From a virus, in the IMG/VR virus record IMGVR_UViG_3300013010_000057, positions 1 through 26,897 of that record: a stretch of 26,897 bases of DNA; one strand, written 5' to 3'. Below the pieces are notes generated by a model. That model did not search any database, was not told the origin of the DNA, and saw only the letters and a list, made by a program, of their open reading frames with translations. Positions 19,281 to 23,462 of this stretch are shown here, piece after piece (the first letter of the stretch is position 1; each line of letters opens with the position of its first letter). The position numbers were made by a program, and so were the translations under genes.

Positions 19281-19874
19281 ATGTCTATATTCGATAAAAT
19301 CAGTGCCGCGGCATTCAGAGCAGGAATCCGATCTAGGACCCCAGAATCCGAAGAGTGGTTCGGTAAAAAGGTAAAAGAACTTGCTGTTCCTTCTAGGACT
19401 AAAATTCTTAAGGATGATGCACTAGAGAAACAGACTAAAATTCGTGTAGGTGATATGGTCATGTATTTTTATGATCCTAAAACAAAAGAAACCCTACCAT
19501 ACTATGATAAATTTCCATTAACTATTATTGTAGGTCCTGCACCAGGCGGATTCTATGGATTAAATCTCCATTATGTTAACCCTGTTGCACGTGCAAGATT
19601 ATTAAATGAATTATTTAAACTTGCACCTAAAGATTTAAAACCAGATTCTCGTTTAACCCGATTAACATATGACTTGTTGCAAGGGGTTAAGAAGTATAAA
19701 GAATTTGAACCATGCTTTAAAAGGTATTTAGTATCTCACGTCAAGTCACAGATGTCACGTGTGCCTATGACCGACTGGGAAACAGCAATCTATCTACCAA
19801 TACAGCAATTTAAGAAGAAGAGCGCCCGATCGGCCTGGGCTGATTCCAGAAAAGTGTACCAGGGAGGCAGATAA
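19281..19874 (+). CDS. 2: Probable DNA end protector, gp2-like, 197 aa
   Basis: Conserved-looking features are the N-terminal MSIFDKISAAAFRAGIRSRT, the central YYDKFPLTIIVGPAPGGFYG followed by LNLHYVNPVARARLL, and the basic C-terminus (QQFKKKSARSAWADSRK). I associate this pattern with proteins of T4-like marine phages annotated as DNA end protector gp2, which caps DNA ends in filled heads and blocks host RecBCD in T4. T4 keeps gene 2 beside gene 4, and here it follows gene 4. The net charge is strongly basic, fitting DNA contact. I cannot verify homology to T4 gp2 by eye. Its stop overlaps the next start (TAATG). Confidence 0.55.
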   Translation: MSIFDKISAAAFRAGIRSRTPESEEWFGKKVKELAVPSRTKILKDDALEKQTKIRVGDMVMYFYDPKTKETLPYYDKFPLTIIVGPAPGGFYGLNLHYVNPVARARLLNELFKLAPKDLKPDSRLTRLTYDLLQGVKKYKEFEPCFKRYLVSHVKSQMSRVPMTDWETAIYLPIQQFKKKSARSAWADSRKVYQGGR

Positions 19875-20503
19875 TGTCCATTGATAATTTAAAAAGTATA
19901 ATCAGTAAACGAGGTGGACTTGCAAAGACAAATAGATTTCAAATCTTTTTTACACCACCACAGGGTAATCTGTTAAGTACCCAAGGATTAGTAGGAGCAA
20001 TTACATCTGGCGGCGGCCTTAAATCTATGGTAAATGACCCTAGAGATATTTCTCTCTTATGTGAGAACGTAACGATTCCCGGTCGACAGATTGCAACACT
20101 TGATTATCAAGCAGATAAACAGGCAGTAAAGATACCGTATTCCTTTATTAATGAAGATGTGACGTGTTCCTTCTTACTCACCAATGATTATTATATGAAA
20201 ACTATGTTTGACGATTGGTTAGAACAAGTATTTAATACTGAATCATACCGTGCAAAATTTAAAAAAGATTTTACTTCGGATGTTGTTATACAGCAGCTGA
20301 ATGAAAAGAATATTCCCGTATATGGAGTTAGGTTAGAAAATGCCTTTCCTACCACAATTACTGGAATTGCTCTGGACAATAACAGTGAAAGTGCTGTCCA
20401 GAAAATTAGTGTAACATTCAGTTACGATAACTATGTACCAGAAGGGCCGTTGTCTTCAACAGCGTCAGCATTCAGAAGCGCGATACCATCTGGTCTTATA
20501 TAA
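19874..20503 (+). CDS. 54: Tail-tube-family protein, gp54-like tube initiator, 209 aa
   Basis: Shows the gp19/tail-tube pattern: LAKTNRFQIFFTPP near the N-terminus, LCENVTIPGRQIATLDYQAD, SFINEDVTCSFLLTNDYYMK, and a C-terminal NIPVYGVRLENAFPTTITGI followed by a beta strand (VQKISVTFSYDNY). T4 gp54 starts tail-tube polymerisation on gp48 and shares the fold of gp19. It could instead be a second tube protein. gp54 is favoured because it is beside hub-assembly genes and the tape measure and not beside a sheath gene. GGAGG precedes the start, which overlaps the upstream stop by one base. Confidence 0.6.
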   Translation: MSIDNLKSIISKRGGLAKTNRFQIFFTPPQGNLLSTQGLVGAITSGGGLKSMVNDPRDISLLCENVTIPGRQIATLDYQADKQAVKIPYSFINEDVTCSFLLTNDYYMKTMFDDWLEQVFNTESYRAKFKKDFTSDVVIQQLNEKNIPVYGVRLENAFPTTITGIALDNNSESAVQKISVTFSYDNYVPEGPLSSTASAFRSAIPSGLI

Positions 20504-20518
20504 TTTTAGGAGATTATA

Positions 20519-21223
20519 ATGGCATTACCAAAACTTAATAGTGCGAGCTATGAAACAACTATCCCTTCTACCGGTCAGGTTATTACTTTTAGACCTTATC
20601 TAGTAAAAGAGGAAAAGATATTAATGATGGCACTAGAGTCTAATGATCAGAAACAGATTGTTAAGGCAACTAAGGATATGATATCCTCTTGTGTGATAGA
20701 TGATATTAATATTAATAAATTAGCTACATTTGATATTGAAAGTTTATTCTTACAACTTAGATCAAAATCTGTTGGAGAATCTATAGGACTTAAAGTCAAG
20801 TGTGATCATTGTAGTACACAGAACGATGTGAGTGTTAACTTTGATGAAATTGGAGTTGATGTACCCAAAGATGACGGTGTAATTATGATTACCGATACAG
20901 TCGGTGTTCAAATGAGATACCCATCATTCGATGATATATCATCCATTAACCCTGATAAAGAGGAATCCATTGAAACCGCATTTGATATTATTATGAAATG
21001 CATTGATAGTGTGTTTGATGAAGATAATGTTTATCCTGCTGCAGCAGAGGGTAAGACTAAAATGAGAGATTTTGTGGAGTCTTTAAATACTGCACAATTC
21101 CAATCACTGGCAAATTTCTTTGAAACCATGCCAGTACTAAAGACTACAGTAGAATTTAATTGTACTGCATGTAAAGAGGATAATTCTACGGAATTAAAAG
21201 GTCTACAAAGTTTTTTTACGTAG
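20519..21223 (+). CDS. 26: Baseplate hub assembly protein gp26-like, 234 aa (0-frame product)
   Basis: Belongs by motif to the T4 gp26 baseplate-hub family: N-terminal ALPKLNSASYETTIPSTGQV, then ITFRPYLVKEEKILMMALES. Two CxxC pairs at residues 95/98 (CDHC) and 215/218 (CTAC) probably bind one zinc ion. The length is near T4 gp26 (208). AGGAGA sits 5 bases before the ATG. The frame ends ...QSFFT at a TAG directly after seven Ts (21211-21217), where a -1 shift would join it to the gp51-like sequence. In T4, gp26 and gp51 are needed for hub assembly with gp27, gp28 and gp29. Confidence 0.85.
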   Translation: MALPKLNSASYETTIPSTGQVITFRPYLVKEEKILMMALESNDQKQIVKATKDMISSCVIDDININKLATFDIESLFLQLRSKSVGESIGLKVKCDHCSTQNDVSVNFDEIGVDVPKDDGVIMITDTVGVQMRYPSFDDISSINPDKEESIETAFDIIMKCIDSVFDEDNVYPAAAEGKTKMRDFVESLNTAQFQSLANFFETMPVLKTTVEFNCTACKEDNSTELKGLQSFFT

Positions 21224-21405
21224 GCCTCTCTCACGATAGCCTAGTTAATCACTACAAGACTAACTTCGCGATGATGCAGCATCATAATTATAGTTTAACT
21301 GAACTAGATAATATGATGCCTTGGGAAAGGGAAATATATGTCGCGCTCTTACAGGAGTGGATAAAGGAAGAGAACGAAAGAATTAAAAAGGAAAATAAAA
21401 GATGA
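20519..21405 (+). CDS. Predicted gp26-gp51 fusion by -1 ribosomal frameshift, 295 aa
   Basis: Reading gp26 to 21217 (233 codons) and then slipping back one base adds 62 codons that start YVGLSHDSLVNHYKTNFAMM and continue through HHNYSLTELDNMMPWEREIY to a Lys/Glu-rich helix and TGA at 21403-21405. These residues resemble gp51-type hub-assembly proteins of marine T4-like phages. The -1 frame has a TAA at 21181-21183 and no ATG, GTG or TTG before the slip site. Its first ATG (21271) would drop the conserved-looking LSHDSL part. The stop overlaps the next gene start (ATGA). Position just upstream of the tape measure matches the frameshifted chaperones of lambda (G/GT) and P2 (E/E'). Confidence 0.65.
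21211..21217 (+). promoter_or_regulatory. Slippery heptamer T_TTT_TTT for -1 frameshifting
   Basis: In the gp26 frame the codons are AGT TTT TTT ACG TAG, so the seven Ts fit X_XXY_YYZ exactly and the 0-frame stop comes two codons later. Three bases further on, TAGGC (21221-21225) can pair with GCCTA (21238-21242), a possible short stimulatory stem. Eight bases more of inverted repeat (ATGATG-CAG-CATCAT) follow at 21271-21285. Confidence 0.6.
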
Positions 21406-21716
21406 CCGAAGAAAATAAAACTCATCCAGCGGACACTAATGGCGATGGTAAAGTATCTAAGGAAGAGCATGATATGTACTTGGAATTTAAAAGAAAAGAA
21501 CTTGATGACCAAGATGCTATGCGAGATGCTCAGAGAAAGATGGCATGGTTTGCTCTCTTAGGCATGTTACTATATCCATTTGCTGTGGTAATAGCAAGTT
21601 GGTCAGGACTCAATGAAGCTCAGTCAACTCTGGGTTCTATGGCGCCAACATACTTTGTAGCCGTAGCAGGTATTGTAGCAGCCTTCTTTGGTGCACAGGC
21701 CTTTACTAAAAAATAG
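21402..21716 (+). CDS. Two-TM membrane protein with an EF-hand, 104 aa, unknown function
   Basis: Residues 11-22 (DTNGDGKVSKEE) match the 12-residue EF-hand calcium loop at every key place: D1, N3, D5, G6, a hydrophobic at 8, and E12. A charged helix follows (LEFKRKELDDQDAMRDAQRK), then two predicted membrane segments at residues 48-67 (AWFALLGMLLYPFAVVIASW) and 82-101 (YFVAVAGIVAAFFGAQAF). There is no signal peptide. The start overlaps the gp51-like stop (ATGA), and the tape measure begins 9 bases after its stop, so it is coexpressed with tail-hub assembly. By position it could be an analogue of T4 gp28, a membrane-associated hub component encoded between 27 and 29, or a holin-like protein. 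Neither can be shown from the sequence. Confidence 0.8.
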   Translation: MTEENKTHPADTNGDGKVSKEEHDMYLEFKRKELDDQDAMRDAQRKMAWFALLGMLLYPFAVVIASWSGLNEAQSTLGSMAPTYFVAVAGIVAAFFGAQAFTKK

Positions 21717-21725
21717 GAATGACCG

Positions 21726-23462
21726 ATGAAAGATAATCCCACACCACCTGATAATCAAGAAGATCCTTTTGCGGGCCTCACCAAGGGGTTGCAGGAACAG
21801 AATGCTCTGTCTAAGGCAGCTGCTGACAATAAGTCTTTAGCAGATAATTTACAGAATCAGTTATTAAATGACTCCGTAAAGTTAAACGATGAACAGAGAA
21901 AGAGTATGGAAGAAATGGTCCGGACTCTACAGTCTAAGGATCCTGCTGATTTAGAGAGGCAGAAAGAAGCAAGGGCACATGCAGATAAGGTATTGGAAGC
22001 TTTAGAAGGGATCTTATCTAACACTGAAGACCTTGGCAAGATTGATGGGCCAGTTGCAGGTGTGAGTGCAGCATTACTCGCCATTCCAGTTGCACTATTG
22101 GCATTGGGTGCTGGGTTCGCAGTGGGTGTGGCAGAATCATTTACTAAAATTATTAAGGTATTTACTAAGGTAATATTCAAAGCAGTTAATGCTGTAACTA
22201 AACTTTTCGGAATTGATCTTGCTAAGATCGGTAAAGGTTTAGGTAAATCAATCACCGGATTCACTAAGGGTTTTGGAGCATCAATTAAAGGTATTGGAAC
22301 AGGAGCATCTGCACGTATCGCAAAGATTGCGGATAGTATCGGAGATATATTTAAGCCTCTCACTAAGGGTTTAACTAACATTAAGAGAGCATTCACCGCT
22401 GGATTTGCAGGATTAAAGACATTTAGAACAGCTACGGGCCAGTTTGGTAAAGTAGGGTTCTTTGGTAGACTGGGAGGTGTATTCCAATCTCTTACTAAAC
22501 CCTTTAAAGCTATAGGTGGTGTAGTTAAGAGCCTTAAGGACTTTGTACTAACCCCTATTAAGGCGGTAGGCAGCAGCTTGCGTTCTCTTAAAGGTGCAAT
22601 GCCGGGTGGTGGTGTGAGTAAAATTATTAAACCAGCAGTAGATACCATCAAAAGAATTGTAGGCATACTAAAAAGTGTCGCTAAAGTTGCTGGTGGTTTC
22701 GGTAGAACACTAGGTAGGTTATTCTTACCAATAACTGTTATTATGTCACTCTTCGATACATTCAAAGGTGCTATGGCTGGGTTTGATAAGTACTCGGAGA
22801 AAGGTTTCCTAGAAGGTATTATAGGTGGACTTTTCGGCGGTATATCTGGATTCCTAGAAGGTTTTATTGGTCTTCCATTAGACTTATTAAAGAGCGGCAT
22901 ATCGTGGATTGCAGGTAAGTTAGGTTTTGAGAATTTTTCCGAACAACTCGATTCATTCTCTTTTAAAGATTTAATTGCAAACCTATTCACTTCTATTACT
23001 GATACCATTGTAGGCTTCATAGGTAGTATCAAAGATTCTATTGCTGATATCGGTATTGGAGGTTTAATTCAGAATGTCGCTTTAAACCTATTAAAGATAT
23101 TTAAGAAGATTGTCACATTCCCTTCTGCAGTAGCATCAGGTGCGATGCATGCAATTGCAGCAGCTATGCCTGGGGGAGAGACTCCGGGTGAAGGGTTCAT
23201 GCGCGGATTTAACAAAGTATTTACTGCAGGTGATGATAGTATAGACTCTATGAAAGTCCAAGGTGATGGCCTTAACGAGAAAGGCGAAGAGATTAAATCT
23301 ATGTCTGGTGAGAACGAGCTAGAGAAATCATCTGCTCAACCAACTGTTGTCTCTGCAGTGAATGCTGTAACATCAGATAATTCTACTACTAGGGGTGGGG
23401 ACACATATGTTATGTCACCTAGTAAGCCTAATAGAAGTAGAGAAGCATTAGCCAGTAGATAA
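21726..23462 (+). CDS. 29: Tail tape-measure / hub protein, gp29-like, 578 aa
   Basis: Length is close to T4 gp29 (590 residues), the tape measure of a tail of about 100 nm. Residues 20-100 are charged and helical, probably coiled coil. Residues 108-160 are hydrophobic (PVAGVSAALLAIPVALLALG). The middle is a series of KGxG/KSxxG amphipathic helices, and residues 330-400 contain another hydrophobic stretch (LFLPITVIMSLFDTFKGAMA, then LEGIIGGLFGGISGFLEG). This is the usual tape-measure make-up. AGGA lies 7 bases before the ATG. It is the last plus-strand gene, follows the gp26/gp51 chaperone-like pair, and converges on gene 32. A long antisense frame across it is a shadow. Confidence 0.75.
   Translation: MKDNPTPPDNQEDPFAGLTKGLQEQNALSKAAADNKSLADNLQNQLLNDSVKLNDEQRKSMEEMVRTLQSKDPADLERQKEARAHADKVLEALEGILSNTEDLGKIDGPVAGVSAALLAIPVALLALGAGFAVGVAESFTKIIKVFTKVIFKAVNAVTKLFGIDLAKIGKGLGKSITGFTKGFGASIKGIGTGASARIAKIADSIGDIFKPLTKGLTNIKRAFTAGFAGLKTFRTATGQFGKVGFFGRLGGVFQSLTKPFKAIGGVVKSLKDFVLTPIKAVGSSLRSLKGAMPGGGVSKIIKPAVDTIKRIVGILKSVAKVAGGFGRTLGRLFLPITVIMSLFDTFKGAMAGFDKYSEKGFLEGIIGGLFGGISGFLEGFIGLPLDLLKSGISWIAGKLGFENFSEQLDSFSFKDLIANLFTSITDTIVGFIGSIKDSIADIGIGGLIQNVALNLLKIFKKIVTFPSAVASGAMHAIAAAMPGGETPGEGFMRGFNKVFTAGDDSIDSMKVQGDGLNEKGEEIKSMSGENELEKSSAQPTVVSAVNAVTSDNSTTRGGDTYVMSPSKPNRSREALASR

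Follow-up and report, generated by a model that had tools for sequence, protein, structure and literature searches.

We report that the gp26 gene in a stretch of ocean-virus DNA of 26,897 nucleotides, the whole of which is referred to here as the window, very probably carries a programmed -1 frameshift of the lambda G/GT type that makes a tail-assembly chaperone in two forms, gp26 and gp26-51. That a programmed frameshift exists at gp26/gp51 is the part of this reading that we hold with the highest confidence, and the slip site, its frame, the selection acting on that frame, the missing start signals and the paralogy seen in T4 are established by sequence. In the mechanism that we propose, ribosomes on gp26 would reach U_UUU_UUU two codons ahead of the stop, and most would continue to the end of gp26, while in a minority both tRNAs would slip back by one base and translation would run on for 62 more codons, yielding gp26-51 of 295 aa. 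The two products would behave like lambda gpG and gpGT, with the shared gp26 part binding the tape measure protein, a minority of copies recruiting tube or hub components through the gp51 tail they carry, and both products leaving before virion completion. The occurrence of the shift, its rate (a low product ratio), the binding roles and the absence from the virion are inferred only, and no protein-level evidence for the fusion exists, in the form of peptide, reporter or ribosome-profiling data.

Layout of the locus and predicted fold of the gp26 domain

The order of genes in the window is tube, gp26/51, small ORF and tape measure (Table 1). An earlier note on this DNA had placed the junction just upstream of the tape measure, which holds in that a tape-measure-like gene follows, but the small ORF intervenes. 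This ORF has an EF-hand-like loop (DTNGDGKVSKEE), whose EF-hand match is weak and below the cut-off, and two membrane-like stretches. The gp26 of the window matches PF12322 (E 8.3e-62, 209 bits, above the curated cut-off of 24.5) and PHROG_150 (gp26; E 2.2e-67), and its reading frame ends AGT TTT TTT ACG TAG, with the seven Ts in the phase that the earlier note had described. A tandem -1 slip joins 233 gp26 codons (..QSFF) to 62 further codons (YVGLSHDSLVNHY...ENKR, 21217-21402), with the predicted junction peptide GLQSFFYVGLSHDSLVNHYK. The extension matches PHROG_634 (gp51, 'baseplate hub assembly catalyst'; E 8e-29, profile positions 60-117 of 121), in agreement with the gp51-like identity that had been proposed, and a further match, to the C-terminal end of the PHROG_150 (gp26) profile, indicates that this profile already includes joined members. 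Its stop TGA (21403-21405) shares bases with the ATG of the following ORF, at 21402 (ATGA).

Table 1. Features at the gp26/gp51 locus, in positions of the window.
Feature	Position	Strand	Basis or remark
Tail tube gene, directly upstream of gp26	19874..20503	+	PHROG_45 E 4e-33, PHROG_3629 E 2e-28
gp26, 0-frame product, 234 aa, putative short chaperone	20519..21223	+	PF12322, PHROG_150, predicted N-domain fold
Shine-Dalgarno-like AAAAGG, ~10 nt upstream of the heptamer, possible stimulator	21196..21201	+	Inferred only
Slippery heptamer T_TTT_TTT	21211..21217	+	Seven Ts, X_XXY_YYZ phase, two codons ahead of gp26 stop
-1 frame extension (gp51 tail), 62 codons and stop TGA	21217..21405	+	PHROG_634; no usable start
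Proposed TAGGC/GCCTA stem	21221-21225 with 21239-21243	+	Not supported
Small 104-aa ORF, between gp51 tail and tape-measure-like gene	21402..21716	+	ORF list
Tape-measure-like gene	21726..23462	+	PHROG_27688 E 4e-11, PHROG_1272 tape measure E 2.7e-6

The predicted model of window gp26 has a pLDDT of 90, and the best matches of its N-terminal 85-95 residues among 515 chains were RBSTP2171 (Z 7.8), the HK97 tail assembly chaperone (Z 7.4) and YqbN (Z 7.3), below which the scores dropped to Z 4.5 and then to 3.0 and lower. We take YqbN and RBSTP2171 to be prophage-type tail chaperone proteins. With Foldseek, HK97 gp13 had the highest probability for the gp26 model (0.91), but its E was 0.44. Sequence searches, including those against solved structures and Pfam, did not find this chaperone kinship, for which the support is structural only, and when the T4 gp51 model was used for a fold search, chaperones were absent among its matches. 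Overall, we judge it quite probable that the shared N-terminal part of gp26 has the tail-assembly-chaperone fold and a chaperone role. Additionally, residues 95, 98, 215 and 218 (20801-21172) are four near-invariant cysteines in two CxxC hairpins, which probably form one zinc site.

The top three structural matches stand clear of the rest, one of them being a phage tail chaperone and the other two taken as such, and gp26 sits between the tube and tape measure genes, where G/GT-type chaperones are known users of a -1 shift. Both observations count against a reading in which the frameshift is real, but gp26 and gp26-51 are a baseplate-hub factor and the fold match reflects a common arrangement. 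We consider this reading unlikely while leaving it some room, as Z scores under 8 are middling on their own, the role given for T4 gp26 and gp51 is that of chaperones in hub assembly, and part of the genetic evidence puts gp26 in the hub (PMC3004832). T4 gp51 is needed yet absent from the particle, with its function unknown (PMC3004832), and this absence is only a hint of chaperone-like behaviour.

The slippery run and the -1 frame in relatives

We collected 277 loci with gp26, of which 262 have an out-of-frame gp51 tail near the gp26 stop, and in all 262 the register of the tail is -1. These relatives include the cyanophages P-SSM2, S-PM2 and S-RSM4, Sinorhizobium phages phiN3 and phiM9, Rhizobium phage AF3, KVP40, Aeh1, Pseudomonas phage Milchi and a Nitratidesulfovibrio phage. 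The sequence T_TTT_TTN (N = T, C, A or G) lies at most six codons from the gp26 stop in 255/262 loci; in Pelagibacter phage Mosig (L165) and in L202 a T_TTT_TTC is placed further upstream, and L236 reads TCG TTT TTT TAA at the slip region. The four Ackermannviridae-type loci (L179, L180, L276, L273) lack a canonical heptamer, although their tail, too, is in the -1 frame. The combination of heptamer and start-less -1 frame that the earlier note looked for in relatives is thus kept widely, with the exception of the Ackermannviridae-type loci, and since these lack the slippery run, not every relative shifts at this site.

Upon comparison with a null in which the amino acids were kept and synonymous codons were drawn from each gp26, the heptamer was found well above expectation at every level of clustering, with 132/139 against 50 expected in 80% identity clusters, 27/31 against 8.6 at 40% identity (P=2e-18) and 11/14 against 2.8 at 35% identity (P 3e-10). 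For instance, phiM9 and AF3, whose heptamer is T_TTT_TTG, use TTC at all 11 and 12 other counted Phe codons, respectively, yet TTT at the slip.

Next, we consider the -1 frame itself. In the window the previous stop of this frame lies 40 nt before the gp26 stop, and no ATG, GTG or TTG occurs in the frame between that stop and its first ATG, at 21271 and 50 nt past the gp26 stop, so the earlier claim of 62 codons that open upon a -1 slip, lack an upstream start and overlap the next start is confirmed. Between the slip and the first ATG, relatives show a pS of 0.72, a pN of 0.19 and a dN/dS of 0.09, indicating strong purifying selection; the constraint check that the earlier note had proposed thus finds the -1 frame under amino-acid selection. 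Over the same interval, the -1 frame contains a stop in 0/132 representatives, whereas both other frames are stopped in all of them. Furthermore, a ribosome-binding site is missing at the first -1 ATG (mean +0.4 kcal/mol, in comparison to -5.3 at the gp26 start and -4.2 at the next gene).

Older annotations imply that ribosomes reinitiate after the gp26 stop and make gp51 as a short protein of its own, and a separate gp51 is indeed annotated in the P-SSM2, S-PM2 and P-RSM6 records. A start codon lies at most 11 nt from the gp26 stop in 23/132 heptamer-bearing representatives, with overlaps that include TAATG in KVP40 and TGATG in phiM9, and three of the Ackermannviridae-type loci, without the heptamer, have a TAATG stop-start overlap, while Klebsiella phage May has neither heptamer nor overlap; coupling or another slip may operate in these relatives. 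However, initiation at the first -1 ATG of the window, which has no binding site, would drop about 18 of the conserved residues, the whole -1 ORF of SRB7757 contains no ATG, GTG or TTG, and reinitiation gives the heptamer no reason for retention. We regard this explanation as improbable. Among the annotated records that were viewed none has a joined CDS for gp26-51, and the gp51 tail is left unannotated in those of S-WAM1, Sf-CH1b, S-MbCM6, S-CAM1 and Aeh1.

Slippage of RNA polymerase on the T run, producing mixed transcripts, could also bring the two frames together, given that seven Ts are a homopolymer and that AT-rich genomes permit slippage. In about one third of the representatives, however, the run stops at six Ts and the next base is C, A or G, and the codon before FF ends in T in 132/132 heptamer-bearing representatives, which is needed for tandem tRNA slippage but not for transcript slippage, leaving this option very improbable. 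An assembly or homopolymer read error that conceals a gene in one true frame, which the earlier note had named as a possible refutation, is already refuted and has a negligible likelihood, error-prone as homopolymers are, because hundreds of independent contigs and cultured isolates share the frame break (the independent contig L002 is identical to the window at the junction, and more than 250 other loci, including the cultured P-SSM2, S-PM2, KVP40 and Aeh1, have the same break), and many relatives carry T6C, as well as T6A and T6G forms, which are not length errors.

Candidate stimulators of the slip

We examined the sequences on both sides of the slip site for signals that could support a programmed frameshift. 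Upstream, GG at -11/-10 is fixed in 132/132 representatives, and the anti-Shine-Dalgarno pairing is about -5.6 to -5.7, which is comparable to a gene start and stronger than inside gp26 (-1.8). Since the synonymous null already gives -4.9, this signal is partly forced by the protein, through a conserved glycine codon; it exceeds the null only modestly, and its role as a stimulator is inferred only, although in the proposed mechanism it would probably help.

Downstream, the letters of the TAGGC/GCCTA stem put forward in the earlier note are present, but its folding is no better than that of shuffles (z -0.47), and relatives display only one-sided G-U/G-C changes, without a compensatory change. 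A general downstream hairpin was, across relatives, not above control at 40 nt and slightly above it at 60 nt. Strong hairpins a few bases past the slip are found in L164, L166, L175, L274 and L259 (P-SSM2, S-RSM4, S-H34, S-PM2 and L259), and these differ in sequence, making it possible that they are lineage-specific stimulators; in the proposed mechanism a downstream hairpin would be a strong element in some relatives only.

T4 genes 26 and 51 and comparison with known systems

T4 gp26 and gp51 are, by sequence, paralogues. Both match PF12322 (216 and 178 bits, respectively) and PHROG_150 (6.7e-71 over 14-235 for gp26; 2.6e-84 over 13-280 of 282 for gp51), and a profile comparison of T4-type gp26 with the N-part of gp51 gave 99% probability (E 3e-18, 192 columns). 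T4 gp51 consists of the gp26 domain and the tail, in frame, and T4 gp26 ends where the 0-frame product ends; in a MAFFT alignment, the -1 tails align onto the C-terminus of T4 gp51 with the junction Phe in common. At the slip site, gene 26 of T4 reads GAG TTC TTT and gene 51 GTG TTT AAG, neither having a heptamer, and the seven T4-type copies of gene 26 that include their 3' end, which read GAG TTC TTT or similar, lack it too. In one further locus (L192, 1482-2255), a T4-type gene 51 has its gp26-like part and tail in different frames, and the break, near 1860, is well away from the usual junction; this is a sequencing error or a pseudogene.

In the tree, the T4-type gp26 and gp51 N-parts are sister groups (94/86, just under the starred level), and KVP40 and Aeh1, which are Straboviridae like T4 according to their records, keep the frameshift form and are grouped elsewhere. 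Vibrio phage phiKT1024 (L176, 11-1353) is a second arrangement of the split form, with a short gp26-like gene in tandem with an in-frame long gp51 gene; the short gene reads GGT TTC TTC at the site and has no heptamer. Regarding one versus two splits for T4 and phiKT1024, the AU p was 0.14 to 0.23 under two groupings and 0.03 under the long-form grouping, and the branches are long. We consider it likely that an ancestral frameshifted gene gave rise to T4 genes 26 and 51 as sister copies, one for its short and one for its long product, although the frameshift form has not been shown to be ancestral, this being an inference from how widely the form occurs and from other phages. T4 would then make the same two proteins from paralogous genes, 26 for the short and 51 for the long one, the slippery site being gone.

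The earlier proposal that T4-type phages have in gp26/gp51 their equivalent of the frameshifted tape-measure chaperones is supported by the N-domain fold, the T4 paralogy and the lost slip site. G-T frameshifting has been described as conserved in long-tailed phages 'except T4' (Atkins 2016 review, PMC5009743), and since gp26 and gp51 are paralogous and neither gene retains the slippery run, this exception looks like a split version. If this is true, T4 is no exception to the tail-chaperone frameshift rule, the control of the ratio having moved from the ribosome to two genes, and the ancestral frameshifted form is still used by marine T4-type phages, KVP40 and Aeh1. In a core-genome study, about 200 residues were noted to be absent from the N-terminus of gp51 in cyanophages and marine vibriophages, and Aeh1 was said to lack gp51 (Sullivan 2010, PMC3037559). 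We find that Aeh1 does have the gp51 tail, placed in the -1 frame and without a start codon close to where it begins, and both puzzles dissolve, as gp26 supplies the 200 residues through the inferred -1 shift. A description of a gp26/gp51 frameshift was not found in the literature, within openly licensed papers, and with the terms searched the gene does not come up in the main texts of PRFect and GeneTack. Systems of this kind are known already; finding one here, and what it implies for T4, seem to be new.

Among known systems, T4 gp26/gp51 share the family PF12322 and the combination of a short form with a long, tailed form, but differ in having two genes, on opposite strands, without a slippery run. 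HK97 gp13 (2OB9), B. subtilis YqbN (3KLU) and RBSTP2171 (3FGX) have a fold like that of the gp26 N-domain, at an identity of only 5-16%, and gp26 runs about 140 residues longer. P2 E/E+E' likewise belongs to a contractile-tail phage and lies before the tape measure, and P2 slips on T_TTT_TTG, the heptamer of phiM9 and AF3; P2 gpE is Phage_TAC_7 (PF10109) and E' is PF06528, neither of which was detected in gp26 or its tail. A profile comparison of gp26 with P2 E gave no signal, the P2 set being too uniform and its profile shallow, and a link of the gp51 tail to P2 E' through a look-alike SLTEL...W motif was rejected, as 439/3000 shuffles score as high. The lambda G/GT slippery sequence differs from that of gp26, and gp26 is larger, with an extra domain that bears the four conserved cysteines of the probable zinc site, and slips as a rule just one to three codons before its stop. 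Nevertheless, both systems have the gene between tube and tape measure, a -1 slip near its 3' end, a C-terminal extension without a start of its own and a chaperone-type N-domain.
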